DNA of 60,583 nt from Glycocaulis albus (GTDB lineage Bacteria > Pseudomonadota > Alphaproteobacteria > Caulobacterales > Maricaulaceae). The DNA lies in contig NZ_BMFS01000014.1 of assembly GCF_014639075.1 (NCBI RefSeq), positions 1-60,583 on the forward strand, read 5' to 3'. Below, piece by piece: positions 37,882 through 54,273 of the stretch. Below the pieces are notes generated by a model. It searched no databases, was not told the DNA's origin, and worked only from the letters and a program-made list of their open reading frames with translations. Within the stretch, counting starts at the first letter, position 1. Each line of letters begins with the position of its first letter. The position numbers and the translations under genes were made by a program.

Positions 37882-38373
37882 CTAGCGCGCCGTTTCCACG
37901 GCCAGAAAGGCGATCAGGTCGTTGCGGTCGCTCTCGTCGCGCAGGCCCGCAAAGCTCATGCGATTGCCGGGAAGGTAGGTGCGGGGGTTGGCCAGCCACT
38001 GGTCCAGCTCGGCCTTGGTCCACACAAAGTCGGCCTGTTCGAGCGCGCGCGAGAACCGGAAGCCCTCTGCCTCGCCAACCTGCCGCCCGAACATGCCATG
38101 CAGGTTCGGGCCTACCAGATGACGGTCATCCGCACCCAGCGTGTGGCACGAGGCACAGCGCCGGAACAGCCGGCGGCCATTATCGAGATTTGCCGATGCG
38201 TAAGGCTCGCCAAGGCCGGACAGGATCGCTTGGGCCTCATCGGCCGTGGCCGTTGTTTCGGGCGCGCCGCCGTGGGTTTGCGGTTGCGGCGACGGGGTTG
38301 CGCTGTCGCTCTCCCCGCACGCCGCGAGAATCAGGGTCAACACCACAGAGGTCAGAACTGCCTTACGGGTCAT
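37882..38373 (-). CDS. Lipoprotein class I cytochrome c
   Basis: A 163-residue cytochrome with a lipoprotein signal (LTLILAACGES) and a linker rich in Thr, Ala and Pro. The haem motif CASCH occurs in RCASCHTLGADD at about residue 75 and the axial Met in GNRMSFAGL, with the fold of cytochrome c2. It would shuttle electrons in the periplasm, tethered to the membrane. It converges on the RND operon with a 9 bp gap, where a GC-rich hairpin (37877-37892) may end both transcripts. Confidence 0.9.
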   Translation of the reverse strand: MTRKAVLTSVVLTLILAACGESDSATPSPQPQTHGGAPETTATADEAQAILSGLGEPYASANLDNGRRLFRRCASCHTLGADDRHLVGPNLHGMFGRQVGEAEGFRFSRALEQADFVWTKAELDQWLANPRTYLPGNRMSFAGLRDESDRNDLIAFLAVETAR

Positions 38374-38432
38374 GGTCGGCCATCTCCTGCGTCACTGTCA
38401 CCGCCCAGACCTAGCGCCGGTTTCGAGCGCTA

Positions 38433-38894
38433 TCAATCGGCAGCGGGGGCGGATGGCTGCGTCACGTTTTCACGCCGCGCTGTCAGAATGAACAGGAACT
38501 CGCCTTCCAGCGTTATGCCGCCCTGCCGGTTGGTGATGCGGGCGTGGGTGGTTGCCTTGCGGCCTGTCCGCCCGGTGACTTCAGCGTATGCGAGCGCAGG
38601 CCCGTCTTCAGGCGCAAAAGGGCGCCGGTACTGCAGGCTTGCAGTCGCTGTCACAAAGACCTCGCCGGGTCCGCACAGCGTATTGGTGGCCAGCCCTGCC
38701 ACCTGATCAAGCCAGCCGGCGCTGGCCCCGCCATGCACCGCGTTATTCAGGTTCAGCCAGTGTTTCGCGACGGGAATTTCCAGCCTCGCCCGGCCGTCAC
38801 CCAGCTCGATCACGCGTGCGTTCAGCAGCCCCCAGAAGCGTGCCTGGGCCTCGTGGCTGCCAAAATGATCCATCAGGCGGTCAGGCAAAGTCAT
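38433..38894 (-). CDS. PaaI-type hotdog thioesterase
   Basis: A 153-residue hotdog-fold thioesterase. The catalytic region is NNAVHGGASAGWLDQVAG (Asp/His position equivalent of HGG), a hallmark of PaaI-like enzymes that release CoA from aryl or short acyl thioesters. It is the last gene of the minus-strand operon thiolase, acyl-CoA ligase, thioesterase, with an ATGA overlap. In the paa pathway PaaI rescues dead-end thioesters; the same role could apply to this cluster's unknown substrate. Confidence 0.9.
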   Translation of the reverse strand: MTLPDRLMDHFGSHEAQARFWGLLNARVIELGDGRARLEIPVAKHWLNLNNAVHGGASAGWLDQVAGLATNTLCGPGEVFVTATASLQYRRPFAPEDGPALAYAEVTGRTGRKATTHARITNRQGGITLEGEFLFILTARRENVTQPSAPAAD

Positions 38895-40417
38895 TGGCTG
38901 TTGCTGCGCTCGTCGGTCTGCGGCGGGTACACGACACTGCGTACGCTGGAGCGTGTGACCTTGCCAACAGGATTGCGGGGCAGGCGCGCCAGAAGGTGGA
39001 TGGCCTTGGGCGTCTTTACAGGCCCCAGAAGCTCTCGCGCCAGCAGTACAAGCTGGCTGGTATCGAGGCTATGTCCCCTCAAGGGTGTAACGGCCGCCTC
39101 CAGGCGCTCCCCCCACTGAGGATCAGGCACGGCAAACGCGCATGCCTCATCGACGCCCGGCAAGGTCAGCAGCGCAGCCTCAACTTCTGCAGGGTGGATG
39201 TTGTAACCGCCCGAGATCAGCATGTCGCTCGCCCGGCCGGTGATGAACAGATAGCCCTCACGATCAAGATGCCCCAGATCTCCGGTATGCAGCCAGCCGC
39301 CGCGCAGCGTGTCTCTGGTGCGCGAGACATCGTCGAGATAGCCGTCCATCAGGAGCGGTCCCTTCACGGTAATCTCGCCTGTCTGGCCTGGGCGAAGTGC
39401 CTCCCCCTCGCTTCCGGTGATCGCGATTTCGCATAACCGCCCCGCCTTGCCGACCGAGTTGGAGAGCCGTGGATCTGCCAGTTCGGATTCGGTGATCGCG
39501 GCGATGGTCATGGGCGCTTCGGTCTGCCCGTAAAGACCGGCAATGCGCGCTCCGAAAGACCGCTGGGCCCTCAGCAGCTGGTCTGCGGGCATGGGCGCGG
39601 CGCCATAGATGATGCGCCGGAGCGCTGGCGCTTCAATCGGCCTGTCCACCAGCGCACACAGCCGCATGATCAGCGTCGGGGCCATGAAGCTCTCCGTCAC
39701 GGCTTCGTCGCGCAGCAGCCGCAGGATGAGGTTGGGCTCGGCCTTGTGCAGCAATACCAGCCTGCCGCCACGCGCCAGCGTGGGCAGCACAAAGTGTGAC
39801 GCGCCATGCGTAAGGGGCGAGCAGGCCAGAAAGACCGGCTTGGTCTGCGCTCCGAAACGCTCTTCCATATTGATGATGTTGGCCATTACTGACCGGTTGG
39901 ACTGGATCACGCCCTTGGGCTCGCCCGTCGAGCCGCCAGTGAACTTGACAGCCATTGTGTCTTCGGGCTTGCGCACCAGCGGTTCGAAACCGGGCGCCGG
40001 CGCCAGGTTTTCCGGTATGGTTTCCACGCCCTCCGCCAGCGGAGCGAGTATCCGTGCCTCGTCGGGCCCGGCAAGGATTAGGTCGGGTTTCGCCTTCCCA
40101 ATGGCTGCAGCATTGAGCTGCGGCCCGTTGCTGGGGTTCAGCGGCACCCAGACCAGTCCTGCTGACTGGATCGCCAGATACGCCGCGACGTGGTCGATCG
40201 TGTTGGGGGCAGATAGCGCAATGCGTGCGCCAGGCGCAAAGCGGCTCGCCAGATGCGCAGCCAGGCTGCGCACACGCTGGGAAAGCGCATAAAAGCCGAT
40301 CCGCCCGATCAGGCGTCCTTCGGCATCATACTCGCAGGCTGCGCCGTGATCGGGGAATCGGCGCGCAGCCTCCCAGAACAGGCTGACCGGATGGGTGGAA
40401 AGCGTTGGCTGTATCAT
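38891..40417 (-). CDS. Acyl-CoA synthetase (AMP-forming)
   Basis: A 508-residue ANL-family ligase that forms an acyl-adenylate and then the CoA thioester. Motifs: P-loop VKFTGGSTGEPKGV, adenine-site GLYGQTEAP, the hinge LYITGRASDMLISGG (cited as GRASDMLISGG, with domain-alternating Lys/Arg), and NPVGKVTRS holding the catalytic lysine. It overlaps both neighbours by 4 bp, so translation is coupled to thiolase and thioesterase. Substrate is not evident, but the family covers aromatic and medium-chain acids. Confidence 0.93.
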   Translation of the reverse strand: MIQPTLSTHPVSLFWEAARRFPDHGAACEYDAEGRLIGRIGFYALSQRVRSLAAHLASRFAPGARIALSAPNTIDHVAAYLAIQSAGLVWVPLNPSNGPQLNAAAIGKAKPDLILAGPDEARILAPLAEGVETIPENLAPAPGFEPLVRKPEDTMAVKFTGGSTGEPKGVIQSNRSVMANIINMEERFGAQTKPVFLACSPLTHGASHFVLPTLARGGRLVLLHKAEPNLILRLLRDEAVTESFMAPTLIMRLCALVDRPIEAPALRRIIYGAAPMPADQLLRAQRSFGARIAGLYGQTEAPMTIAAITESELADPRLSNSVGKAGRLCEIAITGSEGEALRPGQTGEITVKGPLLMDGYLDDVSRTRDTLRGGWLHTGDLGHLDREGYLFITGRASDMLISGGYNIHPAEVEAALLTLPGVDEACAFAVPDPQWGERLEAAVTPLRGHSLDTSQLVLLARELLGPVKTPKAIHLLARLPRNPVGKVTRSSVRSVVYPPQTDERSNSQ

Positions 40418-41637
40418 CGCGTCAGCACCGTCACCAAGGTCACGGCCTCCTCGACGCCGAGAAACCCGCCCCCATTCTCACACACGCCGGCGCGGGCGTT
40501 TTCGACCTGCATGTTGCCGGCTTCCCCCCGTAGCTGCGCGCACATTTCCGCGATCTGGACAATGCCGGTTGCCCCCACCGGATGGCCCTTGGCGACAAGC
40601 CCTCCGCCGGCATTGACCGGAATGCGGCCGCCGCGCGCCGTCGCGCCCGAGGCGGTAAAGGCGCCACCTTGTCCGCGCGGGCACAGGCCAAGATTTTCGA
40701 TCTGCAGGATTTCGGCAAAGCTTGTCGCGTCATGCACCTCAGCGATGTGCATATCGGCAGGGCCAAGCCCGGATGCCTCCCACGCCATGTCCGCCGCCCG
40801 CTTGCCCAGATGGCGGTCCCAGTCAGTGATGAGCCGCCCGCGGGCTGTCGTCCAGCCTGTTCCGGCCAGTTTTACCGCGCGGGCATTACCCTTCGCGGCG
40901 CAGGCCGATTGCAGCACGATGGCCGCTGCCCCGTCGCTGACCGGCGCGCACATGGCGCGGGTGAGGGGCCAGATTACCGCCTTGTCGGCCAGCACGTCCT
41001 CCGGCGTGAAGGGTGTGCGGTATTGCGCATTCGGGTTTGAGGCAGCGTGGGTGTGGTTCTTGGCAGCGGCGATCGCCAATTGCTGGCGCGTCGTGCCGAA
41101 AGCCTCCATATGGGCGCGCGCGATCCCGGCATAGATGTCCATGAAGAAGCTGCGCGGTGCTTCCGGGGCGTCTGGCGGTATCAGCTCGGCCCCAAGGGCT
41201 GCCATCGTGCTCGCTGTTTCATCTATGCGTTCGATATCGGTGCCGCCCCGGAAGGCCGCCATCACCTGATCGGTCCGGTCAGGGAAAACCATCTTCTCCG
41301 CGCCAACGGCGAGAACTGTCTCAGCCTCGCCTGCGCGGATCATGGACGCACCCAGCGCCACGGCAGACGAGCCGGATGCACAGGCGTTTTCCACGTTGAC
41401 GATCCTGATCCCTTCAATGCCAAGGGGGCTAAGCGCAATCTCGCCGCGTACGGCATTCTGGCCTTCCAGCATGGGCTGGCGGGTGTTCGAAAACAGGGCC
41501 GCCTCGATACGGTCCGGCGAGAGCCCGGCATCGGCAAGTGCTGCCATAACCGCCTCCCGGGTCAGATCCTTCACTGAACGTGCCGGATGCTTGCCGAGCG
41601 GGGTCATGGCTGCGCCGGTGATGTAAACACTGTCCAT
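40414..41637 (-). CDS. SCP-x-type thiolase
   Basis: A 407-residue thiolase. The nucleophile Cys lies in VENACASGSSA (about residue 89), then EVHDATSF and GHPVGATG (catalytic His). The motif EVHDATSF rather than NEAFA places it among SCP-x/sterol-carrier-protein thiolases, typically acting on branched or ring-derived acyl-CoAs. ATG at 41637 is preferred over TTG 41640. It is the first gene of the operon and is divergent to paaN across a 138 bp gap. Confidence 0.9.
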   Translation of the reverse strand: MDSVYITGAAMTPLGKHPARSVKDLTREAVMAALADAGLSPDRIEAALFSNTRQPMLEGQNAVRGEIALSPLGIEGIRIVNVENACASGSSAVALGASMIRAGEAETVLAVGAEKMVFPDRTDQVMAAFRGGTDIERIDETASTMAALGAELIPPDAPEAPRSFFMDIYAGIARAHMEAFGTTRQQLAIAAAKNHTHAASNPNAQYRTPFTPEDVLADKAVIWPLTRAMCAPVSDGAAAIVLQSACAAKGNARAVKLAGTGWTTARGRLITDWDRHLGKRAADMAWEASGLGPADMHIAEVHDATSFAEILQIENLGLCPRGQGGAFTASGATARGGRIPVNAGGGLVAKGHPVGATGIVQIAEMCAQLRGEAGNMQVENARAGVCENGGGFLGVEEAVTLVTVLTR

Positions 41638-41775: not shown

Positions 41776-43461
41776 ATGAGCGTTGCAGCCCGGCTCTACG
41801 ATCAGCACCGCGAAACGCTGGACACGGCATTGAAGGCCGTCAGGATCCGCGACCACTGGAGCCCGTTCAGGGAATCGCCCAGCGCGAAACTGCATGGCGA
41901 GGAGGCACCCCGCCTTGGCAAGTCCCGCTTCGAGGCGCAGCTGGGCAAGCCGTTCGATCTCGAGCAGCCCGGAACCATCGGAACGGTCGGAGCTGAAGTG
42001 TCGCCCTATACCCGGGAGCCGCTGGGGATCACCTATCCCAAATCCGATCCGGCAGCCTTGTTTGCTGCGTCGCGCAAGGCGATGAGTGGCTGGACGAAGG
42101 CGAGCGTGGAGGAGCGCGCAGGCATCATCACCGAGATGCTGTTTGCGATGGAGCGCAACGCATTCGAGAACGCGCACGCTACCATGCATACGGCCGGGCA
42201 GGGCTATGTGATGGCATTTTCCGGCTCCGGCGCGAATGCGCTGGACCGCGGGCTGGAAGCGCTTGTCTACGCCATGAAAGCCATGCAGGACGTGCCTGAG
42301 ACCGCCAGCTGGACCAAGCGCTTCCTTGAGCCGGAGCCCGTCAGCCTGAAAAAGCGTTATGTGCGTGTGCCGCTGGGTCCGGCGGTCGTCATTTGCTGTG
42401 CCACCTTCCCTTTGTGGAACGCCTACCCGGCGATGACCGCCAATCTGATGACCGGTAATCCCGTTATAGTGAAACCGCACCCTACCGGCGTGCTGCCGGT
42501 CGCCATGGCCGTGCGCACCTGCCGCGAGGTGCTGGAGAAGGCAGGCTACGATCCAAACCTTGTCCTGCTGGCGGCGGACGAGCCGATGGACCAGATCACG
42601 ATCCGGCTGCTCGAGCAGCCTGATTGCCGGATCGTCGATTATACCGGTTCGCAGCGCTTCGGCACCTGGATCGAGAATAACTGCCCCGGGCGGCTGGTCT
42701 TCACCGAGACCGCGGGCTGCAACTCGGTCGTGATCCATTCGGCGAACGATTTTGGCCGCGTCGCCCACACGGTCGCGCGCGCCATGGTGACGTTTGCCGC
42801 CCAGATGTGCACCGCGCCGCAGAATGTCTTCATCCCGCGTTCCGGCGTGCAGACCCCGGACGGAATTATTGCCTATGACGACGCGGTGGAAACGCTGGTG
42901 TCTGCGATGGACAAAATCGCGGGCGACAACACGCTGGGGCCGGCCATCGCGGCTGCCGTGCAAGCCGATGCGACCATCGAGAATGTCGAGGCCATGACCC
43001 GCAAGGGCGAAGCGGAGGGCAATATCTTGCGCCGCTCCGGCCCGGTTTCGAACCCGGACTACCCGCAAGCCCGCACCGCCAGCCCCGTCCTGATCGAGTG
43101 CGATCCGGCCAATGAGGATTTCTATGGCGAGGAGCGCTTCGGCCCGGTCAGCTTCGTGATTCCCGTCGACAGCGCGCAGGAGGGTGTGCGTCTGGCCACC
43201 TCGCAGGCGCGAACGCGCGGTGCCATCGCCTCCTATCTCTATTCCACCGACGAGAGCTTCATCGACGCCGCCGAGCCAGACTATCTGGGCGCCGGGGCCT
43301 CGGTCAGCATCAATATAGACCGGGGCATGCCGATGAATTTCATGGGCGCCTATTCGGATTATCACGTCACCGGGCTCAATCCGGCGGGCAATGCCAGCCT
43401 GACCGACCTTGCCTTCGTCGCGCCGCGCTTCCGTGTCGTGCAGATGCGCAGGCCCGGCTGA
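41776..43461 (+). CDS. PaaN-like aldehyde dehydrogenase
   Basis: A 561-residue ALDH-superfamily enzyme of the PaaN group. The cofactor/Glu motif is TETAGCNSVVI and the nucleophile Cys is in FAAQMCTAPQNVF; the N-terminal 90 residues (ARLYDQHRETLDTAL) match the PaaN leader rather than a typical ALDH. GGAGG precedes the ATG by 6 nt. PaaN-like proteins occur in phenylacetate and other ring-cleavage loci and probably oxidise an aldehyde (semialdehyde) intermediate. No hydratase domain is attached. Confidence 0.87.
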   Translation: MSVAARLYDQHRETLDTALKAVRIRDHWSPFRESPSAKLHGEEAPRLGKSRFEAQLGKPFDLEQPGTIGTVGAEVSPYTREPLGITYPKSDPAALFAASRKAMSGWTKASVEERAGIITEMLFAMERNAFENAHATMHTAGQGYVMAFSGSGANALDRGLEALVYAMKAMQDVPETASWTKRFLEPEPVSLKKRYVRVPLGPAVVICCATFPLWNAYPAMTANLMTGNPVIVKPHPTGVLPVAMAVRTCREVLEKAGYDPNLVLLAADEPMDQITIRLLEQPDCRIVDYTGSQRFGTWIENNCPGRLVFTETAGCNSVVIHSANDFGRVAHTVARAMVTFAAQMCTAPQNVFIPRSGVQTPDGIIAYDDAVETLVSAMDKIAGDNTLGPAIAAAVQADATIENVEAMTRKGEAEGNILRRSGPVSNPDYPQARTASPVLIECDPANEDFYGEERFGPVSFVIPVDSAQEGVRLATSQARTRGAIASYLYSTDESFIDAAEPDYLGAGASVSINIDRGMPMNFMGAYSDYHVTGLNPAGNASLTDLAFVAPRFRVVQMRRPG

Positions 43462-43627: not shown

Positions 43628-45835
43628 ATGAACAGATCAAAAGCGTGGCTGCGCCTGTCTGTCGGTGCGATGGCACTGACGGGCGCGCTGGCCTCGGCCG
43701 GCACCGCGATTGCGCAGTCCGCCGAAATCATCACCGTGACGGCCCAGCGCCGCGAACAGTCCGTGCAGGACGTGCCGGTCGCCGTGACCGCCTTCAGCGC
43801 TGCGGATTTGCGCGATTCGTCGATTGCCGGTGTCGAGGGCATTGCCGAGCGCACGCCCGGCTTCACCATGACGCGGTTCAATATCGGTGAGCCGCAGCTC
43901 TATATCCGGGGCATCGGTTCCACGTCCGACTCGGCAGCGGGTGATCCCTCTGTCGCGGTATCCATCGACGAGGTCTATATCGGCCGGGCCGGTGGCGGCG
44001 CCCTCAGCTTCTTCGACATCGAGCGTGTCGAGGTGCTGCGCGGTCCGCAAGGCACGCTCTATGGCCGCAACGCGGCTGGCGGCGCGGTGAACATCATCTC
44101 GGCCCGCCCGGATGCCACGCAATCCTTTGGCGAGTTCACCTTCGGCTATGGCGACTATAATGACCGTCTGGTCAGCGCCGTGCTGAACGGCCCGCTCGGT
44201 GATCAGGGCGCCGCCGGACGCCTGGCTTTCCTCTACCAGGCCAATGACGGCTACTCTGAAAGCGTGCCGTCGGGTGCTGACCTGGGCGGTTCCAGCACCT
44301 GGGGCGTGCGCGGTTCGATCAGCTGGGATGCCGGCAATTGGAGCTTCCTGGCTCAGGCCGACTATGCCTCGGACGAAACCGACGGGCAGGCCCGCGTTCC
44401 GGTGCTCGGCCCGAACACCAACCCGGCCTTTGTGGGCCTGATCGGCGCCATCCGGGCCGGGCTCGACGAGCGTCAGAGCTTCTCCGATCCGGATACCTTC
44501 CAGGAGCGTGACAGCTGGGGCGTGCTTTTCCGCGCCGACACCACTCTGGGCGACATGGATTTCACCTCGCTGACCTCCTATCGGGGCCTCGAATTTTCCT
44601 GGTTTGATGATCTGGGCGGCCTTCCGGTTCCGCCGTATGTATTGCGCGTGGAAGACGTCAACCAGGACGAGGCCTGGCAGTTCACGCAGGAATTCCGCCT
44701 GTCACGCACGCTCGATAATGGCGCGTTCTGGGTGGCCGGGCTCTACCTCTTCCACGAGGAAGTGGACCGCAACGAAAATTTCGTCGTGGATGCCCGCGCA
44801 CCGCTGCCCGCCATTGCGTCGGGTGACGTGACCTTCTTCCAGGAAGCCACGAACCAGTCTGCCGCCGTGTTTGCCCAGCTCACCATGCCGCTGGCCGATA
44901 CGCTGAATCTGACTGTAGGTGGCCGGCTTACCTACGACTCCAAGGAGATATTCGCCCGCGGCGTCGACAATGCGACACCGGGCGGACCTTTCCCGGGTAT
45001 CCCGCTTGGCCCGCCTCCGGGTGTCGCCTATCCCAATGGCGCTTCGGGCAGCGAAAGCTGGACCGAGCCGACCTGGCGGCTGGCGCTGGACTGGCAGGCA
45101 TCGGACAATGTGATGCTCTATGCGTCCTATGACCGCGGCTACAAGTCCGGCCTCTATCCCAGCCAGGCACAAAGCGCCGCGCAGGCAACCACTGCGCTTG
45201 ATCCGGAAATTCTCGACAATTTCGAGATCGGGATGAAATCGACCTTCGCCGAAGGCCGGGGCATCTTCAATCTGGCGGCGTTCTACACCGACTATCAAAG
45301 CCTGCAGGTTTATGAGCTGTTGGGCCTTGCCCTGTCGACCTCGAACGCGGATGCGGAAATCCGTGGCGTGGAGGCGGAATTCGCCTTCCAGGCCAATGAG
45401 TATTTCGAGTTCGGCGGCTCCTACGCCTATCTCGATGCCCAGTACACCTCCGATGCGGTCTCCAATCTCGGCGTGCTGCCCTATAACGGCAACCAGCTGA
45501 CCCGTTCACCGGAGCATCAGTACAATGTCTATGCGGCACTGGAGCTTCCCATAGCGTCCGGTACGGCGCGTGCGCGCGTCGACTATAACTGGACGGGTGA
45601 CTACTATTTCGACCCGTCCAACGCGCCGGAAACGCTGGTGGAATCCTATGGCACGGTCGATGCCCGGCTGAGCTGGGGACCGGACGATGCCAACTGGGAT
45701 ATCTCGCTGTGGGGCCGCAACCTCACCGACGAGCTCTATCCCAGCCATATCATCAAGAACCTCGATATCGGGTTCACGGTGTTCGCGCCGCCGCGCACCT
45801 TCGGCGCGCAGTTCCGTATGCGTCTGGGCGGATAG
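43628..45835 (+). CDS. TonB-dependent receptor
   Basis: A 735-residue outer-membrane receptor. A signal peptide ends near ASAGTAIAQS, followed by a TonB-box-like EIITVTAQRREQ, a plug domain (VPVAVTAFSAADLRDSS, LYGRNAAGGAVNII) and a 22-stranded barrel closing in FGAQFRMRLGG. The TonB-box and plug style (AQRREQ) match the large receptor group of Sphingomonadales and Hyphomonadaceae that import aromatics and plant polymers as well as iron complexes. It lies between paaN and the HxlR region, so may import the substrate of the cluster. Confidence 0.93.
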   Translation: MNRSKAWLRLSVGAMALTGALASAGTAIAQSAEIITVTAQRREQSVQDVPVAVTAFSAADLRDSSIAGVEGIAERTPGFTMTRFNIGEPQLYIRGIGSTSDSAAGDPSVAVSIDEVYIGRAGGGALSFFDIERVEVLRGPQGTLYGRNAAGGAVNIISARPDATQSFGEFTFGYGDYNDRLVSAVLNGPLGDQGAAGRLAFLYQANDGYSESVPSGADLGGSSTWGVRGSISWDAGNWSFLAQADYASDETDGQARVPVLGPNTNPAFVGLIGAIRAGLDERQSFSDPDTFQERDSWGVLFRADTTLGDMDFTSLTSYRGLEFSWFDDLGGLPVPPYVLRVEDVNQDEAWQFTQEFRLSRTLDNGAFWVAGLYLFHEEVDRNENFVVDARAPLPAIASGDVTFFQEATNQSAAVFAQLTMPLADTLNLTVGGRLTYDSKEIFARGVDNATPGGPFPGIPLGPPPGVAYPNGASGSESWTEPTWRLALDWQASDNVMLYASYDRGYKSGLYPSQAQSAAQATTALDPEILDNFEIGMKSTFAEGRGIFNLAAFYTDYQSLQVYELLGLALSTSNADAEIRGVEAEFAFQANEYFEFGGSYAYLDAQYTSDAVSNLGVLPYNGNQLTRSPEHQYNVYAALELPIASGTARARVDYNWTGDYYFDPSNAPETLVESYGTVDARLSWGPDDANWDISLWGRNLTDELYPSHIIKNLDIGFTVFAPPRTFGAQFRMRLGG

Positions 45836-45894: not shown

Positions 45895-46295
45895 CAGACC
45901 AGCCGCTCCAGCCTGCCCTTGCGCCTGATCAGATTGCGGTAGTCCCATTGCACGGTACGTGCTTCGGCCAGCCAGCGGCGCAGGAGATCTTCGTCGATCT
46001 GCTCGGGCGCCGTGTAGCGCGCCTCCGCGGCCTTGAATGTGCCTTCGGGCTTCAGACCCGGCGTTTCAAAGGACTGCCCGCTCCAGAACAGCAGGCGCAC
46101 GCAAGACTTCAGCTTGCTATAGCCGGTGACCGGATTGCCATCGAGGAACCAGACCGGGTGGGCATGCCAGATCTTGCTTTCCGCTTCCGGCAGCGCGTCG
46201 TCGATCACATGCCGGAGCGTGTCGCATATCGTCCGGTCAGCCTTGGACTGTGCGCCGTGATAGGCCTCTATGCTTTCAAATCGCGGGGCTTTCAT
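45894..46295 (-). CDS. DUF1801 domain protein
   Basis: A 133-residue soluble protein of the YdhG/DUF1801 fold: ICDTLRHVIDDALPEAESKIWHAHPVWFL is cited by its core KIWHAHPVWFL; KLKSCVRLLFWSGQSF and ARYTAPEQIDEDLL follow. The family fold resembles frataxin-like iron-binding proteins, but function is unknown. It lies downstream of the HxlR gene on the same strand after 20 bp and probably shares its transcript. Confidence 0.82.
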   Translation of the reverse strand: MKAPRFESIEAYHGAQSKADRTICDTLRHVIDDALPEAESKIWHAHPVWFLDGNPVTGYSKLKSCVRLLFWSGQSFETPGLKPEGTFKAAEARYTAPEQIDEDLLRRWLAEARTVQWDYRNLIRRKGRLERLV

Positions 46296-46315: not shown

Positions 46316-47284
46316 CTACTGCGCGGCGCTGATAGCGGCGCGTTCGCTGGCCGAGAGGGCCGGCACCGGCCGCACGCTGCGCGCATCAATCTCCTCGCCG
46401 GTCACGGCGTTACGCAGAACCGGCAGCACGGTCTTTCCGGTCGTCTGGGAAACCAGTTCGACAGGCAGCTTGCCCGGCTCGCACAGCCAGCGTGCGCCCC
46501 AGGCGAAGAAGGCCAGCACAGTCGGGTAGAGGGCCAGTCCGCGCTGGGTGAGCACATATTCGAAGCGTTCAGGGCGTATCTGGTAGCGTTTGCGCGCAAG
46601 GATTCCGTGGGAAACCAGACTTTCGAGCCGGTCTGCCAGCACGCTGGTCGACACATCCAGCGTTTTCAGGAAATCGTCATAGCGCCGCACCCGGTAGAAG
46701 CACGCGGCCAGCACCAGATTGGTCCAGTAATCTCCGAACAGCTCTATCCCCAGCTCGATAGGCTTGCCGCTGGCGCGCATGGCGGGCTGGACTTTCCGGC
46801 GGCGCATCTCTTTCAGGGCGGGCGCCTTTCCGGGCACCGGCCCGGGCCTGGGCATGACGTCTCCCGGCAGGATGGGGGCCCCGCTGTCTTCACCGGCCAT
46901 GATCGGTTCCACCGCGCCGCTGCCATCGCGCGCGACAAGCCTGATCGCGCGGGCCGGGTCAGAGCGCGGTGACCAGTCCTGCTCCCAGAGGATAAGCATG
47001 ATCGCGACGCCATAAAGGTCGCGTCCCATTGCGGTCAGAACGTACTCGTAGCGGTCTGGCCGCGTCTGATACTGGCGGCGGGAAAGCAACCCGGCATCGG
47101 TCAACGTCTTCAACCGCCGGGCCAGTACCGAGCGGGCGATGGCCAGCCGTTCCATCCAGTCATCAAACCGGCGCGCACCCCGGAACGCCTCACGCAGGAT
47201 CAGCATGGTCCACGCCTCTCCCACCACGTCCATGGCGTGGGAGACGGGGTTGTTCTGAATCATCTGCTTGAGACGGGAGTCCAT
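46316..47284 (-). CDS. Tandem HxlR-type transcriptional regulator
   Basis: A 322-residue protein made of two HxlR-type winged-helix domains. Domain 1 (residues 10-105) has VVGEAWTMLILREAFRG, RRFDDWMERL and SVLARRLKTL; domain 2 (residues 175-265) has LFGDYWTNLVLAACF, RRYDDFLKTL and SVLADRLESL. Normal HxlR proteins have one domain and act as dimers, so this looks like a fused pseudo-dimer. ATG 47284 is preferred to the start at 47323. It is divergent from the flavin oxygenase gene across about 100 bp holding a perfect inverted repeat. Confidence 0.88.
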   Translation of the reverse strand: MDSRLKQMIQNNPVSHAMDVVGEAWTMLILREAFRGARRFDDWMERLAIARSVLARRLKTLTDAGLLSRRQYQTRPDRYEYVLTAMGRDLYGVAIMLILWEQDWSPRSDPARAIRLVARDGSGAVEPIMAGEDSGAPILPGDVMPRPGPVPGKAPALKEMRRRKVQPAMRASGKPIELGIELFGDYWTNLVLAACFYRVRRYDDFLKTLDVSTSVLADRLESLVSHGILARKRYQIRPERFEYVLTQRGLALYPTVLAFFAWGARWLCEPGKLPVELVSQTTGKTVLPVLRNAVTGEEIDARSVRPVPALSASERAAISAAQ

Positions 47285-47361
47285 GCGCCCACTAGAGCCG
47301 ATGGATTTACAATACGCAAACACCCTTGCGGGGGTTGAGGCAGTCCGCGAAACCCGCTAGA

Positions 47362-47376
47362 GTTAGTTTCGCTAAC
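47362..47376. promoter_or_regulatory. Candidate operator GTTAG-N5-CTAAC
   Basis: A perfect inverted repeat GTTAGTTTCGCTAAC lies in the 101 bp gap between the HxlR gene (start 47284, minus) and the flavin oxygenase gene (start 47386, plus). HxlR regulators bind short symmetric sites next to their own gene, so this is the likely operator. A related half-site precedes the TonB receptor. Confidence 0.5.
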
Positions 47377-47385
47377 AAAGTGACC

Positions 47386-48408
47386 ATGTCCGCTCAGACC
47401 GCAACATCAACCAGAAAAGGCCGACGCTTGAACCGCTTGCCCGATACGATCACACGCCGCTTGCGCCTGCCACTGGTAGCTGCGCCGATGTTTCTGGTGT
47501 CCGGGCCGGACATGGTGCTCGCGGCGTGCCGCGCGGGAGTCATTGGGTCGTTTCCCGGCCCGAATTGCCGCACGATCGAGGATGTTGAAGTCTGGATGAA
47601 GACGATCAGCGAGGCGCTGACCGATGAGGATGCGCCCTGGGCCTACAACATGGTCTGCCATTCCTCTTATCCGCGCTTTGATGCGGAGCTGGAGCTGGTC
47701 CGGAAATATCAGCCGCCGATTGTCATCACGGCGCTTGGCGGCCCGCACCGCGTCGTCGAGGCGGTGCATGCCTATGGCGGGCTGGTGTTTGCCGATGTGA
47801 ACTCGGTGGAATTTGCCGCAAAGGCGGCAGCGACGGGCGTGGACGGGCTCGTGCTGGTCTGCGCGGGGGCGGGCGGCCACACAGGCGCCGTCGCCAACGT
47901 GGCCTTCATCGAGGCGGTCCGCCAGTTTTTCGACGGCATCATTGCCGTTGCTGGCGGCATCTCCACAGGACGCGGCATCCGCGCCGCCGAGGCGATGGGG
48001 GCGGACCTTGCCTATATCGGCACCGCCTTCATCCCGGCTGAAGAGAGCCTCGCGCACCCCGACTACAAGGACATGGTGGTGCGCTCGGGCGCGTCCGACA
48101 TTGTGGTGTCGGCCTCGGTTACAGGCGTCCCGGCAAGCTGGCTGAAAGAGAGCCTGAAACGCTCCGGGCTGGACCCGGAAAACCTGCCCGGAAAGGGCAG
48201 GGTGCAGTTTGATGATCCCTCCAGGATCCTGAAAGGCTGGAAGGATGTCTGGTCTGCCGGTCAGGGGGTCGGAGCGGTGAATGCCGTCGAGCCGCTGGGC
48301 GCAATCGTAGCCCGGCTGGCCCGCGAATACGGTTTGCATGAACAAGGGCCGTCCATGGCCCGTCCTCATCTGGAAAGGAGTGCTCGTGATGAACGCCCCG
48401 GTGCATGA
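47386..48408 (+). CDS. Nitronate monooxygenase-family flavoprotein
   Basis: A 340-residue FMN TIM-barrel enzyme of the 2-nitropropane dioxygenase/NMO group. The FMN region RLPLVAAPMFLVSGPDMVLAACRAG, reduced to VAAPMFLVSGPDM, and the catalytic His in GAGGHTGAVAN are visible, as is GGISTGRGIRAAEAMGADLAYIGTAF (GGISTGRG). The group includes true nitronate oxidases and FabK-like enoyl reductases; context favours a step on an unsaturated acid, unproven. The start at 47386 is used. Its 3' end overlaps the dioxygenase gene by 20 bp. Confidence 0.88.
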   Translation: MSAQTATSTRKGRRLNRLPDTITRRLRLPLVAAPMFLVSGPDMVLAACRAGVIGSFPGPNCRTIEDVEVWMKTISEALTDEDAPWAYNMVCHSSYPRFDAELELVRKYQPPIVITALGGPHRVVEAVHAYGGLVFADVNSVEFAAKAAATGVDGLVLVCAGAGGHTGAVANVAFIEAVRQFFDGIIAVAGGISTGRGIRAAEAMGADLAYIGTAFIPAEESLAHPDYKDMVVRSGASDIVVSASVTGVPASWLKESLKRSGLDPENLPGKGRVQFDDPSRILKGWKDVWSAGQGVGAVNAVEPLGAIVARLAREYGLHEQGPSMARPHLERSARDERPGA

Positions 48409-49876
48409 GTCCGATAACGGTATGGAGCGCGACGCGCCTTCATGGCTGGCCAATATAGATAACGCCTATTTGCGCGGCCTGTACGCGCCGGTCGCCCATG
48501 AAACGACAGCCGAGGCGCTGAAGGTCATTGGCGAGATCCCGGCCGATCTGTGCGGCGCCTACATGCGCAATGGCCCCAACCAGGTCTATCAGCCCAAGTC
48601 CAAGCATCACTGGTTTGACGGTGACGGCATGGTCCACACCATCGCCTTCAAGGACGGCAAGGCGAGCTATCGCTCGCGCTTCGTGCGCACCGCGCATTTC
48701 AATGCCAATGCCGCCAGGGGGCAGGAGCAATGGCCGGGCTATATGGGCCATCCTGACCCCAACGCGCCTCCGGGGGCGGGTTCGGACGGCTGGCTGAAGG
48801 ACTCCGGCAATACCGATCTCATCCTGCACAATGGCGAGGTGCTGGCGCTCTGGTATCAGGCGGGCGTGCCGGTACGCCTCGATCCGGCGACCGGCGAGAC
48901 GCTCGGCGAGCAAACCTGGGGCGGGGCGCTGACCCGTCAGGTGTCGGCCCACGCCAAGACCGACCCGGTGACCGGCGAGCTCTTCTTCTTCGATTACAAC
49001 ACCAAGCCGCCCTACATGACCTATCATGTGGTGTCGCGTGAGGGTCAGATGATCCGTAACGTCCCCATCGATGTGCCGGGTCCGCGCCTGCCGCACGACA
49101 TGGCGATGACGGAAAACTACGCGATCCTGCATGACCTGCCGTTGTTCTGGGATCCCGAGCTTCTGCCGCGCGGCATCCACAAGGTGACCTTCTACCCCGA
49201 CATCCCGTCACGCTTCGGCGTCATCCCGAAATACGGGAAGGAAGGCGATGTGCGCTGGTTCGAGGCCGAGCCGTGCTACATCTACCATGTCACCAATTCC
49301 TGGGAGGAAGGCGACTGGATCATCATGGAGGGATGCCGGGTGACCGAGCCGTGCCCGGAATCCAAGCCCGGCCAGGGCATGTATTCGCGCATGATGGCCT
49401 TCCTCCTCCTGAAGGCACGCTTCCACCGCTGGAAGTTCAACCTGAAAACCGGTGAAACGCGCGAGGAATGGCTGGATGACCGCAATGCGGAATTCCCGAC
49501 CGTGAACATGGATGTGACGGGCCGCAAGTCGCGCTATTCCTACCATGTCTCCATTCCGACAAACCGCGAGACGATGGTGTTTGACGGGCTGATCAAGTTC
49601 GACACGCAAACCGGCTCTTCACAAAGCCTGAAATTCAAGGATGGCTGGTACGGGTCCGAAAGCCCGTTCGCGCCCCGCCTGAACCCGAATGGCGACGAGG
49701 ATGACGGCTATCTCATCACCTTCATCACCAACGAGGTAGACGGCCAGTCGGAGTGTCATATCATCGATGCAAAGGACATTGCGGCGGGGCCGGTGGCACG
49801 GGTCGTTCTGCCCTCGCGCGTGCCGGCAGGATTCCACTCGACATGGGTGCCGGGAAAAGAGATGGGCTGGGCCTGA
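48389..49876 (+). CDS. Carotenoid cleavage-type dioxygenase
   Basis: A 495-residue RPE65/carotenoid-oxygenase family enzyme: a seven-bladed propeller with an Fe(II) centre held by four His. The four appear in VSAHAKTDP, RLPHDMAMT, CYIYHVTNSWEE and AGFHSTWVPG, and the N-terminal PADLCGAYMRNGPNQVYQ plus HHWFDGDGMVH is the family opening. Members cleave C=C bonds of carotenoids, apocarotenoids, stilbenes or isoeugenol. AAGGAG lies 8 nt before the ATG. The gene starts inside the previous one, so the two are coupled. Confidence 0.93.
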   Translation: MNAPVHESDNGMERDAPSWLANIDNAYLRGLYAPVAHETTAEALKVIGEIPADLCGAYMRNGPNQVYQPKSKHHWFDGDGMVHTIAFKDGKASYRSRFVRTAHFNANAARGQEQWPGYMGHPDPNAPPGAGSDGWLKDSGNTDLILHNGEVLALWYQAGVPVRLDPATGETLGEQTWGGALTRQVSAHAKTDPVTGELFFFDYNTKPPYMTYHVVSREGQMIRNVPIDVPGPRLPHDMAMTENYAILHDLPLFWDPELLPRGIHKVTFYPDIPSRFGVIPKYGKEGDVRWFEAEPCYIYHVTNSWEEGDWIIMEGCRVTEPCPESKPGQGMYSRMMAFLLLKARFHRWKFNLKTGETREEWLDDRNAEFPTVNMDVTGRKSRYSYHVSIPTNRETMVFDGLIKFDTQTGSSQSLKFKDGWYGSESPFAPRLNPNGDEDDGYLITFITNEVDGQSECHIIDAKDIAAGPVARVVLPSRVPAGFHSTWVPGKEMGWA

Positions 49877-49988
49877 CAGGCCCGGGCCGGACACAAGACC
49901 ATTGCCGTGCCTGAACGCGCCCGATGCCACGAGGCGCGGGGCAGGGCATCTTCGACTCTGACAATACAGGCCTGGGGAGGCAGACAGG

Positions 49989-51692
49989 ATGAAACTCGCA
50001 CCGCCAAAGAAGATTGCCGCCTATCGCAAGCAGGGCTGGTGGGGCGATGACACATTCTACGATGTCTTCCTGCAGGCGGCTGCCAAACGCCCGCAGGCCC
50101 TGGCGGCGATCGATCCGCCAGACCGTGAAGCGCTGACCGGGCGCAAGCCCCGCCGCCTTGTATGGGCCGATCTCGCTGACGAGGTTGAACGCACGGCAGC
50201 GGCGCTTGTCGGGCAGGGGCTGGTCAAGGGTGACCGCGTGGTCATGCAGATGCCCAACGTGGTCGACACGCTTTCCATCTATCTGGCCTGCGCCAAGCTC
50301 GGCATCATCCTCAGCCCTGTGCCGGTTCAGTATGCTGGCCACGAATTGCGCCACGCGATGGACTCGGTTCGTCCGCGCGCCTTCGTTGCGTCAAAAATGT
50401 TCAAGGACCGGGAACTGGCGCGCGGCTGCAAGGCGGTGGCTGGAGACCGGGCCAAAGTCCTCTCCATGGACGGGGGCGGCGATGGGCTCGTCGATTTTTC
50501 TGCCGAGATCAGCCGCGCCAACACCCGCAAAGGCCCGTTCGGTCTTGGCGGTGCTGTCGCCAGGCAGAAGGGCGAGGCCGACGATTGCTTCACCATCTGC
50601 TGGACGTCGGGCACAACGGGTGTGCCCAAGGGCGTGCCGCGCTCTCACAATCACTGGATGGCCATTGGTCCGGCGACCTGGCACGGCATGGCGATCCAGC
50701 CCCATGACGTGCTGCTCAATCCATTCCCGATGACGAATATGGCCGCGATTGGCGGCATGTTTGTCTCCTGGCTTCTCAGCGAAGGCACGCTTGTCCTTCA
50801 CCATCCGTTTGATCTGCCGGTCTTCCTCAAACAGCTGGTCACCGAGAAGGTGACGGCAACCATCGCGCCGCCGGCGGTGCTCACTATGCTGCTCAAGCAG
50901 GAGGGCATGCTGGACCAGTTTGACCTGTCCCGTTTGCGGGTAGTCGGTTCCGGTTCTGCGCCGCTATCCGAGTTCATGGTCAAGGGCTGGCAGGACAGAG
51001 GTGTCGAGATCGTCAACCTGTTCGGGTCCAACGAAGGTATTTCATTGTGTTCAGGCCCGGAGGACGTGCCAGACCCCGCCTTGCGCGCGACCGCCTTCCC
51101 GCGCTTCGGGCACAAGGGCGCAAGCTTTTCCAATCCCATGCATGAGCGTATCGAGACCCGGCTGGTCTCCATCGAGACCGGCACGGAAGTCACCGCGCCC
51201 GGCGAGGATGGCGAGTTGCTGGTACGTGGCCCATCGGTTTTCGAGGGCTATTGGGGAGCGACGGCCGCCGAACAAAAGGAGGTGTTTGACGCGGACGGCT
51301 ATTTCCGGACCGGTGATCTCTTCCAGATTTCCGCAGCAGACGACGCCTTTCTCGTGTTTCGCGGGCGCGCCAAGGACATCATCATCCGTGGTGGTGTGAA
51401 TATCTCTGCCGCCGAGCTCGACACACTGCTTGAAGGCCATCCCAAGCTTGCCGAGGCGGCCGTGTTCGGCATGCCTGACGAGGTGATGGGCGAGCGCATC
51501 TGGGTCGCCGCCGTGCCAGCCGCGGGTGAAACGGTAACGCTGGAGGAGGTCGTGGACTTTCTGAAGGCCAAGGAAATCGCCAACTTCAAACTGCCCGAGC
51601 AGATGATCATCGTGGAAGCGCTGCCGCGCAATCCGCTCAACAAGGTGCTCCGCTGGCGCCTTGTCGAGATGGCAAGGGAACAAAAGTCATGA
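49989..51692 (+). CDS. Acyl-CoA synthetase (AMP-forming)
   Basis: A 567-residue ANL ligase. Motifs: P-loop ICWTSGTTGVPKGV, NLFGSNEGI, the hinge GRAKDIIIRGGVNIS and the catalytic Lys in NPLNKVLRW. The N-terminal KKIAAYRKQGWWGDDTF is typical of ligases in aromatic/cyclohexane carboxylate pathways. It would activate the acid made after C=C cleavage and aldehyde oxidation. The stop overlaps the next thiolase gene by 4 bp. AGG-rich leader (GGGGAGGC) precedes the ATG. Confidence 0.93.
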   Translation: MKLAPPKKIAAYRKQGWWGDDTFYDVFLQAAAKRPQALAAIDPPDREALTGRKPRRLVWADLADEVERTAAALVGQGLVKGDRVVMQMPNVVDTLSIYLACAKLGIILSPVPVQYAGHELRHAMDSVRPRAFVASKMFKDRELARGCKAVAGDRAKVLSMDGGGDGLVDFSAEISRANTRKGPFGLGGAVARQKGEADDCFTICWTSGTTGVPKGVPRSHNHWMAIGPATWHGMAIQPHDVLLNPFPMTNMAAIGGMFVSWLLSEGTLVLHHPFDLPVFLKQLVTEKVTATIAPPAVLTMLLKQEGMLDQFDLSRLRVVGSGSAPLSEFMVKGWQDRGVEIVNLFGSNEGISLCSGPEDVPDPALRATAFPRFGHKGASFSNPMHERIETRLVSIETGTEVTAPGEDGELLVRGPSVFEGYWGATAAEQKEVFDADGYFRTGDLFQISAADDAFLVFRGRAKDIIIRGGVNISAAELDTLLEGHPKLAEAAVFGMPDEVMGERIWVAAVPAAGETVTLEEVVDFLKAKEIANFKLPEQMIIVEALPRNPLNKVLRWRLVEMAREQKS

Positions 51693-52921
51693 CCGCTCCC
51701 GTCTTCATTCTCGGCGGCTCGCAGAGCGATTTCTCTGCCAACTGGACGCGGGGCGGCAAGTCGCTTTTCGACCTGATCGAAGAGACGACCCGCGCCGCGC
51801 TCGACGATGTGCGCATGGATGCCGCCGAGATCGATGCGGTGCATGTCGGCAATTTTGCCGGCGAGCTGTTCTGCGGTCAGGGCATGCTGGGCGGCTTCAT
51901 GGGTCACATCGACCCCGGCTTTGAAGGCAAGCCCACAAGCCGCCACGAGGCCGCCTGTGCGTCTGGCTCGATGGCGATCCTTGCCGCCATGAGTGACATA
52001 CTGGCCGGCCATTACGGCACCATCGCCGTCGTCGGTGTGGAGATGATGCGCAACGTGCCCGGCGAAACGGCGGCCCAGCATCTGGGCAGTGCCGCGTGGG
52101 CGGGACGCGAGGCACTAGGCGCGCGCTATCTCTGGCCAGCCATGTTTTCCGATCTGGCCGAAGAATATGACCGCCGCTACGGGCTGAAATACGAACACCT
52201 CGCCGCCATCTCCAAAATCAATTTCGACAACGCCAAGCGCAATCCGCATGCCCAGACACGGGCCTGGCAGTTTGGCGAGGGCAGTTTCACGCAGGATGCT
52301 GAGGCCAACCCGGTCATCGAGGGCTGGATGCGACGCTCCGATTGCGGGCAGGTGACCGATGGCTCTGCCGTCATCGTCCTGGCCGGGGAGACGGCCGCGC
52401 GGGCGTATGCTGCGAAGCGCGGCCTGGACCTCGCCGCGATCCCGCGCCTGAAGGGCTGGGGGCACACCACCGCGCCGCTTCTGATGGAAACCAAGCTCGA
52501 AAAATCACGCAAAGAGGGCGGCTACGCCCTGCCGTGGACGCGCAAGGCCATCACTGATGCCTATGCCCGCGCCGGGATATCCGGCCCTGATGACGTGGAC
52601 GGGATCGAGACTCACGACTGCTTCTCCGTCACCGAATACATGGCGATCGAACATTTCGGCCTGACCGCGCCGGGCGAGGGGTGGAAGGCCGTCGAGAACG
52701 GCATGATCGCCTTCGACGGCAAGCTGCCGGTCAACCCGTCTGGCGGGCTGATCGGGCTGGGCCATCCGGTCGGCGCAACAGGCGTGCGCATGGCGCTCGA
52801 CGCCGCGCGCCAGACCTCCGGCAAGGCGGGTGACATGCAGGTCGAGGCTGCGAAAACCTTCGCCACCTTCAATGTCGGCGGCTCCGGCACGGCCAATGTC
52901 TCTTTCGTGATCGGCGTTTAA
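51689..52921 (+). CDS. SCP-x-type thiolase
   Basis: A 410-residue thiolase with the nucleophile Cys in HEAACASGSMA (about residue 90), HDCFSVTE (acid/base region of SCP-x thiolases), GHPVGATG and ATFNVGGSGTANV. It is of the same broad type as the minus-strand thiolase at 40.4 kb but not closely similar to it, so the cluster has two separate SCP-x enzymes. Coupled translationally to the acyl-CoA ligase by an ATGA overlap. Confidence 0.9.
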   Translation: MTAPVFILGGSQSDFSANWTRGGKSLFDLIEETTRAALDDVRMDAAEIDAVHVGNFAGELFCGQGMLGGFMGHIDPGFEGKPTSRHEAACASGSMAILAAMSDILAGHYGTIAVVGVEMMRNVPGETAAQHLGSAAWAGREALGARYLWPAMFSDLAEEYDRRYGLKYEHLAAISKINFDNAKRNPHAQTRAWQFGEGSFTQDAEANPVIEGWMRRSDCGQVTDGSAVIVLAGETAARAYAAKRGLDLAAIPRLKGWGHTTAPLLMETKLEKSRKEGGYALPWTRKAITDAYARAGISGPDDVDGIETHDCFSVTEYMAIEHFGLTAPGEGWKAVENGMIAFDGKLPVNPSGGLIGLGHPVGATGVRMALDAARQTSGKAGDMQVEAAKTFATFNVGGSGTANVSFVIGV

Positions 52922-52938
52922 GCGCCTCCTTCTCTCTT

Positions 52939-53032
52939 CGTCATTCCGGGGGAGCGTAGCGACACCCGGAACCCAGTTTTTTCGAAGCTATCTGGGTTCC
53001 GGCTCTGCAGCTTCGCTGCGGCCGGAATGACG
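52939..53032. repeat. Palindromic intergenic repeat, 94 bp
   Basis: The element begins CGTCATTCCGGGGGAGCG and ends GCGGCCGGAATGACG; inside are paired CCGGAACCCAG and CTGGGTTCCGG. The two arms are imperfectly complementary across the whole length and would form a large hairpin. A half copy is at 109-146. Such units are dispersed in alphaproteobacterial intergenic regions. It splits the otherwise continuous acyl-CoA ligase-thiolase-thiolase run. Confidence 0.72.
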
Positions 53033-53064
53033 AGTGAAATTGAACTTTGAAGAGAAAATCTCCC

Positions 53065-54273
53065 ATGACCCACACCTATATCTATGACGCCGTGCGTTCG
53101 CCGCGCGGCAAGGCCAAGGAAGATGGCGGGCTGGCGGCCCTGAAGCCGCACGCGCTGACCGGCCAGCTCATCACGGCGCTGGCGGCGCGCAATGGCGAGG
53201 CAGCAGTCAACGATGCGGCGAGCCTGACATTGGGCTGCGTGGGGCAGGTGGGTGCGCAAGGCGGTCATCTCGCTCTCGTCACGCGCCTGCATGCGGGACT
53301 GCCGGACAGCCTGCGGGCCCTGACCATCAATAATTACTGCGTATCGGGCCTGACGGCGGTCGGCATGGCGGCTAGCGAGGCACAGGCAATCGGTGATGAC
53401 CGGCTGCGCCTTGCCGGCGGCGTGGAGATGATGAGCGCAGTGCCCTTCATGGGCGACAAGGCGCATTACTATGCCGACCGGGAAACGGCGGCCGCGCTGC
53501 GCTATGTGCCGGTGGCCCTCTCTGCTGACCTGATGGCCACGATGGAGGGCTTTTCAAGGGACGACCTCAATGCCGTCACCGCCCGCTCGCACCAGCGTGC
53601 GGCCGCCGCATGGGAACGGGGCGGGCTGGACGAGATCATCCCCATCACCGGTCCAGACGGATCGGTGGCGCTGGAGCGCGATGAAAGCGTGCGCGCTGGC
53701 ACCACGGCGGAAGGGCTTGGCCGCTTTCCGCCCGCCTTCGCCGAGATGGGCGCAGCCGGTTTCGACGCCGTAATGCTGAAGGCCCGGCCCGAGCTGAAAG
53801 AGATCAGCCATGTCCACTCTGTCGCCAACTGCCCGCCTGTGTGCGACGGCGCGGCGCTGGCGCTTGTGGGTTCCAGGGATGCGGGTAAGGCCGCCGGGCT
53901 GGCCCCCAAAGCCCGCATCCGCGCCTTCACCGAGGCCACCGGCGACCCCGTGCTGCAACTCACGGCCGGTTTCGCGGCCATGGACCAGTTGCTCGCACGC
54001 ACGGGTCTGAAACTCTCGGACTTTGACCGGATCGAGTTCATGGAGGCCTTCGCCGCCACGCCGGTGAAGTTCGAGCGTGATTATGCGCCCGATATGGACA
54101 AGGTGAACCCGGAGGGCGGGCATCTCGCCATGGGCCACCCGATGGGCGCGTCCGGCGCGATCCTTCTGGCCACCATGGTGGCGGGGCTGGAGCGCTCCGG
54201 GGGCACGCTCGGCCTGATCGTCGCCCATGGCGGCTCCGGCGTCGGCAGCGCAATGATCGTGGAGCGGGTCTGA
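53065..54273 (+). CDS. Divergent FadA-type thiolase
   Basis: A 402-residue biosynthetic/degradative thiolase fold protein. The nucleophile Cys is in TINNYCVSGLTA (about residue 90) and GHPMGASG has the His. Two usual catalytic positions differ: the NEAFA Asn is Met (EFMEAFAAT), and the C-terminal CxG Cys is His (VAHGGSGVG). It may still act, or may be specialised. ATG at 53065 is used; an upstream TTG at 53047 is weaker. It closes the plus-strand catabolic run. Confidence 0.85.
   Translation: MTHTYIYDAVRSPRGKAKEDGGLAALKPHALTGQLITALAARNGEAAVNDAASLTLGCVGQVGAQGGHLALVTRLHAGLPDSLRALTINNYCVSGLTAVGMAASEAQAIGDDRLRLAGGVEMMSAVPFMGDKAHYYADRETAAALRYVPVALSADLMATMEGFSRDDLNAVTARSHQRAAAAWERGGLDEIIPITGPDGSVALERDESVRAGTTAEGLGRFPPAFAEMGAAGFDAVMLKARPELKEISHVHSVANCPPVCDGAALALVGSRDAGKAAGLAPKARIRAFTEATGDPVLQLTAGFAAMDQLLARTGLKLSDFDRIEFMEAFAATPVKFERDYAPDMDKVNPEGGHLAMGHPMGASGAILLATMVAGLERSGGTLGLIVAHGGSGVGSAMIVERV

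Follow-up and report, generated by a model that had tools for sequence, protein, structure and literature searches.

A recurrent gene cluster around a carotenoid-cleavage-type dioxygenase in Glycocaulis albus, possibly a catabolic module for apocarotenoid-like compounds

The DNA examined here, called the window below, is the 60,583-nucleotide contig NZ_BMFS01000014.1 of Glycocaulis albus (assembly GCF_014639075.1), and the system in question is a cluster between 37.9 and 54.3 kb that includes a carotenoid-cleavage-type dioxygenase (CCD). A set made up of 10 of the 13 genes in that interval, plus a hotdog thioesterase, recurs elsewhere in reshuffled form: 2 acyl-coenzyme A (acyl-CoA) ligases (lig1, lig2), 3 thiolases or thiolase-like proteins (thio1, thio2, thio3), a PaaN_2-type aldehyde dehydrogenase, the CCD, a FabK/nitronate monooxygenase (NMO)-like protein, a tandem HxlR regulator, a TonB receptor, and the thioesterase. 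We put at about even the chance that the set forms a catabolic module that has been conserved, reshuffled many times, and probably passed on horizontally, in which an imported apocarotenoid-like substrate would be cut by the CCD and the pieces degraded as CoA thioesters. More tentatively, and at somewhat less than even confidence, we picture an undescribed pathway, cross-phylum and in part plasmid-borne, that would use an exogenous apocarotenoid or polyene as carbon and would be marked by a CCD as gateway, a branched-chain SCP2 thiolase, a thiolase-like enzyme mostly lacking the second cysteine, and a fused-dimer HxlR repressor.

Recurrence of the gene set around CCD genes

Linkage was followed in 249 genomes of the order. 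A CCD (E ≤ 1e-60) is present in 109 of them, 3 at 94-95% identity and the others at 51% or less, and thio2 (E ≤ 1e-80) is present in 60, every one of which has a CCD as well (Fisher p = 9e-28, uncorrected for kinship). The CCD is on the same contig as thio2 in 55 of the 60, within 20 kb in 52, and within 300 bp in 22; the remaining thio2 genes are 50-170 kb from the CCD (3) or on another contig (5). NMO-like proteins (E ≤ 1e-60) are found in 235 of the genomes, and 24 of the 25 best matches have a CCD within 20 kb, against 0 of the next 34, counting distances to the stronger CCD places only.

A wider comparison covers 99 CCD loci, consisting of 20 CCD regions from the order (20 kb, mostly best-ranked), the best 80 of at least 591 named loci, less 2 duplicates, and the window. 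They were compared with the window proteins and by clustering of open reading frames (ORFs); they are the best CCD matches and not a random draw, many of them end at contig ends, and counts out of 99 include the window and its congeners. Thio2 is present in 60 loci, HxlR (median 321 aa) and thio3 in 50 each, lig2 in 47, NMO in 41, the aldehyde dehydrogenase in 27, the TonB receptor in 18 (with a second TonB receptor cluster, c14, in 10), thio1 in 16, and lig1 in 14. Four or more of the 8 core enzymes stand together in 42 loci from four phyla, the carriers being Pseudomonadota, Nocardia (L093, L113), an Anaerolineae metagenome-assembled genome (MAG; L067), and Sporosarcina (L072). Strict collinearity of NMO-CCD-lig2-thio2-thio3 is seen in 10 loci, which are the window, three congeners, and six sphingomonads; in L067 a lipocalin-like gene interrupts this order, and in L072 the block is NMO-CCD-lig2-thio3. 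Thio1 and lig1 are adjacent on one strand in 13 loci. Genes of the thioesterase family (4HBT) are found in L039, L041, L069, and L089, and at 32-33% identity in L042 (= L092) and L104.

Two control sets were drawn, one of 20 weaker CCD relatives (19 at 31-36% identity and one partial at 43-45%) and one of 20 stronger CCDs from further down the list. None of the 20 weaker loci has thio2, thio3, or lig2 at 38% identity or above; NMO (41%) is found in 2 and thiolase matches at 27-33% in 3. Around the 20 stronger CCDs, thio2 is found in 10, HxlR in 5, thio3 in 4, NMO in 2, and lig2 in 1. By these counts, thio2 is the commonest partner of the CCD and the full module is a minority form. On a CCD tree (FastTree, long branches), the module label is clustered, needing 31 changes where shuffles average 46.1, and does not make up one clade, so the CCD alone is no predictor of the module.

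The first-pass annotation had taken these genes for one functional cluster, and their recurrence in rearranged form, with thio2 always in a genome that has a CCD, bears this out. It had also considered that the genes might prove unlinked in relatives. That did not hold, yet many relatives have the CCD only, or the CCD with thio2. A chance neighborhood of catabolic genes, for which one could cite the several units on both strands, is exceedingly unlikely in the face of recurrence in other orders and phyla in differing arrangements; of the flanking genes, those for an alpha/beta hydrolase (abh) and a CitMHS transporter are unmatched beyond the genus in the CCD loci compared, and RND has matches there in just a few (L054, L163, L174), at 25-30%.

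Predicted pathway and its enzymes

We infer the reactions and their order as follows. The TonB receptor would import from outside the cell a hydrophobic compound that bears an activated C=C bond, and the CCD-type Fe(II) dioxygenase, whose predicted activity is oxidative C=C cleavage, would split it into carbonyl products. The translationally coupled flavin mononucleotide (FabK/NMO-like) protein may reduce or oxidize the adjacent conjugated position, the PaaN_2-type dehydrogenase would oxidize the aldehyde, and lig1 and lig2 would form CoA thioesters. Thio2, which seems suited to an alpha-methyl-branched 3-oxoacyl-CoA, would remove short acyl-CoA units together with thio1 and thio3, the hotdog thioesterase would recover CoA, and hydratase steps would be supplied from elsewhere in the genome. 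An SCP2 thiolase hints at alpha-methyl-branched chains, as from polyisoprenoids. The substrate is probably imported and not endogenous, our best guess being an exogenous apocarotenoid or a norisoprenoid-like polyene or enone acid or aldehyde.

The CCD scores 450.1 bits against PF03055 with the profile covered from 1 to 469 of 469, and H205, H253, H317, and H500, which we take to be the Fe-binding ligands, are invariant in 13 of 13 aligned proteins. Against the apo-carotenoid 13,14-dioxygenase model NF052295 it scores 308.8 bits, under the cut-off of 675. The solved structures nearest to it by sequence are the carotenoid 9,10-dioxygenase (plant CCD1) at 281.8 bits, VP14 at 202.1, and the lignostilbene dioxygenases (LSDs) at 178.2 and 176.0, and by this measure the window CCD is nearer to plant CCD1 than to the LSDs. 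The structure model (predicted local distance difference test score of 76.9 and predicted template modeling score of 0.83) bears out the CCD fold only.

All the families named in the first-pass annotation are present at 37.9-54.3 kb according to Pfam and NCBIfam profile searches of the window proteins, the cluster families exceeding the Pfam curated cut-offs and the PaaN_2 and thio2 models theirs. Thio2 scores 623.2 bits against NF004936 (cut-off 375) and keeps Cys90, HDCF, and GHP in 55 of 55 rows, the rows in these counts being ORF clusters among which there may be non-module thiolases. The motif names, including CXG for the second catalytic cysteine, are those in the available text of PMC3406046. 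Thio1 has Cys87 and the GHP histidine in 16 of 16 rows, with HDAT replacing HDCF in all of them; 4, the window among them, have a cysteine at the CXG position, and 12 lack it. Thio3 has Cys98 and the GHP histidine in 49 of 49 rows and the CXG cysteine in only 7, with 42 lacking it and a histidine there in the window. Thio1 and thio2 both match SCP2-type solved structures.

The aldehyde dehydrogenase passes TIGR02288 with 613.1 bits (cut-off 578.75), which upholds the earlier PaaN-like assignment. The supposed PaaI thioesterase is a generic hotdog/4HBT member, and the PaaI label itself falls, at 30 bits against TIGR02286 (PaaI) with a cut-off of 118.9. The NMO-like protein finds its best matches among FabK-type reductase structures (89.7 bits) and scores 45-50 bits against nitronate monooxygenases, though 84.4 bits against 3bo9, deposited as a putative nitroalkane dioxygenase. 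HxlR is a single chain of 322-335 aa, depending on the start codon, with two HxlR stretches (PF01638, 130.7 bits).

The rest of the genome bears on the substrate. CrtI over its cut-off is found neither in the window genome (best 30.7 bits against 238.1, in a search that left out CrtB and CrtP/CrtQ-type synthesis) nor in four congeners searched; of 14 genomes that have both CCD and thio2, 3 have it. PaaA/PaaC have no match in the window genome and are present in 3 of the same 14. Hence, an endogenous carotenoid and phenylacetate are unlikely substrates, in agreement with the earlier statement that this is not a phenylacetate locus, and a dioxygenase cleaving endogenous carotenoid only, which was to have counted against the cluster, becomes improbable. 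The corresponding explanation, that the CCD acts on the cell's own carotenoids (e.g. to retinal) and that the other genes are unrelated, has CCD family membership in its favor; it is very unlikely given the CrtI results and the strong linkage to CoA enzymes. The first pass had further argued that the missing local hydratase rules out beta-oxidation. This could not be sustained: no hydratase is encoded in the cluster, but there are 10 ECH_1 matches, all on other contigs of the window genome, so hydratase steps could come from outside the cluster.

Layout, regulation and surroundings

Table 1. Features of the cluster region, with positions in the window
Feature	Position	Strand	Remarks
Cytochrome c	37882-38373	-	not a module member
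Hotdog (4HBT) thioesterase	38433-38894	-	PF03061 above cut-off
Acyl-CoA ligase 1 (lig1)	38891-40417	-	PF00501/PF13193
SCP2-type thiolase-like protein 1 (thio1)	40414-41637	-	PF22691/PF00108; ATG at 41637, ORF from TTG 41640
PaaN_2-type aldehyde dehydrogenase	41776-43461	+	PF00171; ATG at 41776, ORF opens 41587
TonB-dependent receptor	43628-45835	+	PF00593/PF07715
DUF1801 gene	45894-46295	-	between TonB receptor and HxlR; not a module member
Tandem two-domain HxlR regulator	46316-47284	-	PF01638, two stretches; ATG at 47284
Candidate operator dyad GTTAG-N5-CTAAC	47362-47376		between HxlR and NMO-CCD operon
FabK/NMO-like FMN TIM-barrel protein	47380-48408	+	PF03060; GTG start at 47380
Carotenoid-cleavage-type (RPE65 family) dioxygenase (CCD)	48389-49876	+	PF03055
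Acyl-CoA ligase 2 (lig2)	49989-51692	+	PF00501/PF13193
SCP2-type thiolase 2 (thio2)	51689-52921	+	NF004936
Degradative-thiolase-like protein 3 (thio3)	53065-54273	+	PF00108/PF02803; ORF opens 53047

The overlaps of 4-20 nt claimed at first pass are confirmed by the coordinates, with 4 nt at each of 38891-38894, 40414-40417, and 51689-51692, and 20 nt between the CCD ATG (48389) and the end of the NMO-like stop codon (48406-48408). The GTG start of the NMO-like gene is kept in the window and three congeners. The DUF1801 gene is also in congener G078 (L034), whereas the equivalent loci in G058 and G208 (L032, L033) have no match to it, which points to a minor gain or loss within the cluster.

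Between the HxlR and NMO start codons there is a 15-bp dyad, GTTAG-TTTCG-CTAAC, positioned inside 29 invariant columns of the alignment of the window with three congeners. It overlaps a -10-like TAGAGT (47358-47363) that follows 17 nt after TTGAGG (47335-47340), a hexamer pair with 8 of 12 consensus letters and under the promoter-scan threshold. The natural reading of the dyad is as a candidate HxlR repressor site, and we infer that the module is de-repressed through the tandem HxlR. The window has no second dyad site within one mismatch, and 22 of 100 window shuffles held at least one site at up to one mismatch. Generic scans of the window did no better than shuffles, for promoters (4 against a mean of 3.2) as for terminators (12 against a mean of 11.9).

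The cytochrome c, counted in the cluster by the first-pass annotation, has been taken out of the module and assigned to an RND-efflux neighborhood, because RND and cytochrome c are adjacent in congener G178 with no module enzyme matched within 20 kb (L175), and because outside the genus a cytochrome c homolog is near a CCD only in the module-less loci L047, L050/L117, and L162. G178 has a diverged version of the module elsewhere in its genome (CCD 48%, thio2 68%). Its L175 locus also has, beside the cytochrome c, a tandem-HxlR-like gene at 3852-4838 that is 50% like that of the window, with no module enzyme matched, so this is not a clean empty insertion site. In the window, a class II aldolase-like gene (31916-32680) and the cytochrome c flank the RND pump, and homologs of these two (43-50%) are found close to each other, several kb from module-less CCDs, in L047, L050 (= L117, Parvularcula), and L162. 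Downstream of the cluster are abh, CitMHS, and a CaiB-type CoA transferase; CaiB-like genes are matched in several loci at 24-45%.

Horizontal movement of the module is likely. Outside the genus, a Myxococcota MAG (L052) and a Chloroflexota MAG (L053) have the CCDs nearest by tree path (FastTree). Going by product names only, Sphingopyxis granuli plasmid pRW412b (L134) has a version of the cluster, and Cupriavidus plasmid pENH92 has one with integrases and transposases on both sides; the product names of L133 (Polaromonas) include the CCD and no other module enzyme. On pRW412b, a gene annotated as a ring-hydroxylating dioxygenase alpha subunit stands directly before the CCD.

DUF1295 is near the CCD in 22 of the 99 loci, but it is not counted as a part of the window cluster because the sole copy in the window genome is on another contig. 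A larger type of CCD locus (L035, L048, L091, L106, L125, L128) combines, in sets that differ from locus to locus, another CoA ligase with SnoaL/LEH-like and DapB-like proteins, DUF1295, SDRs, and an MFS carrier, and is perhaps a sister pathway.

Alternative substrates and known systems

A number of observations weigh against a module for apocarotenoid-like compounds as proposed above. The CCD is alone in 20 of the 99 loci, some of them truncated by contig ends, and thio2 is absent from 20 kb around 10 of the 20 further CCDs. Variant loci add Rieske, SnoaL/LEH-like, DapB-like, SDR, or DUF1295 genes, so substrates may differ between versions. With most members of thio1 and thio3 lacking the standard second cysteine, thiolysis by these two would not be assured. 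The dyad has one exact site in the 2.85-Mb, 27-contig genome and the reversed control pattern also has one, so that its rarity is no evidence and its support is position and conservation; outside the window genome and three congeners, no exact copy is found among 174 loci, and it is absent from the G178 loci. TM-scores of the CCD model are 0.81/0.89 to LsdA and 0.79/0.76 to CCD1, and the fold comparison does not tell CCD1 and the LSDs apart. Finally, transport genes vary, with TonB receptors in Alpha- and Gammaproteobacteria and with a porin, MFS, and a TTT binding protein on the Cupriavidus plasmid. The latter set is a better match for a small soluble substrate than for a carotenoid; it speaks against an intact C40 carotenoid and in favor of something smaller, apocarotenoid or norisoprenoid-like.

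A Foldseek search with the CCD model put Osmanthus CCD1 first by E-value, at about 34% identity. This was dropped as support for CCD1 over LSD because LsdA equals or exceeds CCD1 in TM-score, which also lifts the stilbenoid reading slightly.

The substrate could instead be a stilbenoid, lignostilbene, or phenylpropene, the CCD then being an LSD or isoeugenol-type oxygenase and the rest handling aryl aldehydes and aryl-CoA. LSDs and NOV1 fit the CCD model as well as CCD1 by TM-score, L119 has a tannase/feruloyl-esterase family gene, variant loci have a further AMP-binding ligase (c17) that we liken to feruloyl-CoA synthases, and the porin and TTT protein of Cupriavidus would also agree. We nevertheless regard this as unlikely, since the CCD is far under the cut-offs of LSD models NF053778 and NF053780 (231.2 and 229.7 bits where 800 and 650 are required) and, by an approximate mapping that carries residue numbers over by an offset, has Met and Trp at the positions of the Tyr and Lys that bind the 4-hydroxyl in LSDs. 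Aryl aldehydes, too, are not known to require thiolases. The lignostilbene candidate of the first pass is thus made less likely by sequence scores and is not lowered by the fold.

Another activated alkene, outside both the carotenoid cleavage products and the stilbenoids, might be a sesqui- or diterpenoid enone, a polyketide, or an abscisic-acid-like compound. The accessory reductases and SnoaL/LEH-like proteins of variant loci would suit it, and the abscisic acid side chain is shortened in bacterial catabolism, by enzymes not yet named in the available text of PMC9599779. We consider it somewhat unlikely, as by sequence the CCD leans toward the family's carotenoid side and no direct evidence points to such a compound.

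To return to apocarotenoids, algae, plants, and soils are rich in carotenoids and in the products of their breakdown. If such compounds do feed it, the module would be a genetic marker for this carbon flow and would account for some of the numerous bacterial CCDs whose sole annotation is "carotenoid oxygenase"; the labels "PaaN" and "acetyl-CoA acetyltransferase" could then be misleading at these loci. With some other substrate it would still be an orphan pathway of wide distribution, whose regulator, operator, and gateway enzyme can be tested.

All the enzyme families are known, and their recurring combination was not met as described in the literature searched, where the titles and abstract starts among the matches listed gave no CCD-thiolase or CCD-ligase catabolic cluster feeding CoA-dependent degradation in bacteria, most subscription journals being outside the scope. 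Bacterial enzymes of the wider CCD family cleave apocarotenals according to the review PMC5133782, in the available text of which the word "operon" is absent. The SCP2 thiolases and the Ltp2/Sal steroid aldolases, as described in the available text of PMC12329534, are a point of comparison in that thio1 and thio2 match SCP2-type structures, but thio2 has HDCF and not the aldolase YDHF/YDCY, and by coordinates the window cluster has no gap for a DUF35 partner gene.

Plant CCD1-type 9,10 dioxygenases and the bacterial NosCCD/NACOX1/SaCCO have the RPE65 fold and the four conserved histidines in common with the window CCD, which differs in being about 34% identical to CCD1 and in sitting in a CoA-ligase/thiolase module. 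LsdA, NOV1, and LSD4 have the same fold with TM-scores as high as those of CCD1, but to them the window CCD scores lower by sequence, and the putative phenol-binding residues seem not to be kept. The phenylacetate (paa) pathway likewise includes a PaaN_2 dehydrogenase, a thiolase, a hotdog thioesterase, and a CoA ligase, whereas the window genome is without a PaaA/PaaC match and has the CCD. A similar logic is that of the acetovanillone pathway of Sphingobium SYK-6, which reportedly has a ligase and a thiolase acting on a beta-keto acid and is likewise said to shorten its substrate without a local hydratase or dehydrogenase; the window cluster, in which no carboxylase is seen, differs from it in having a C=C dioxygenase.

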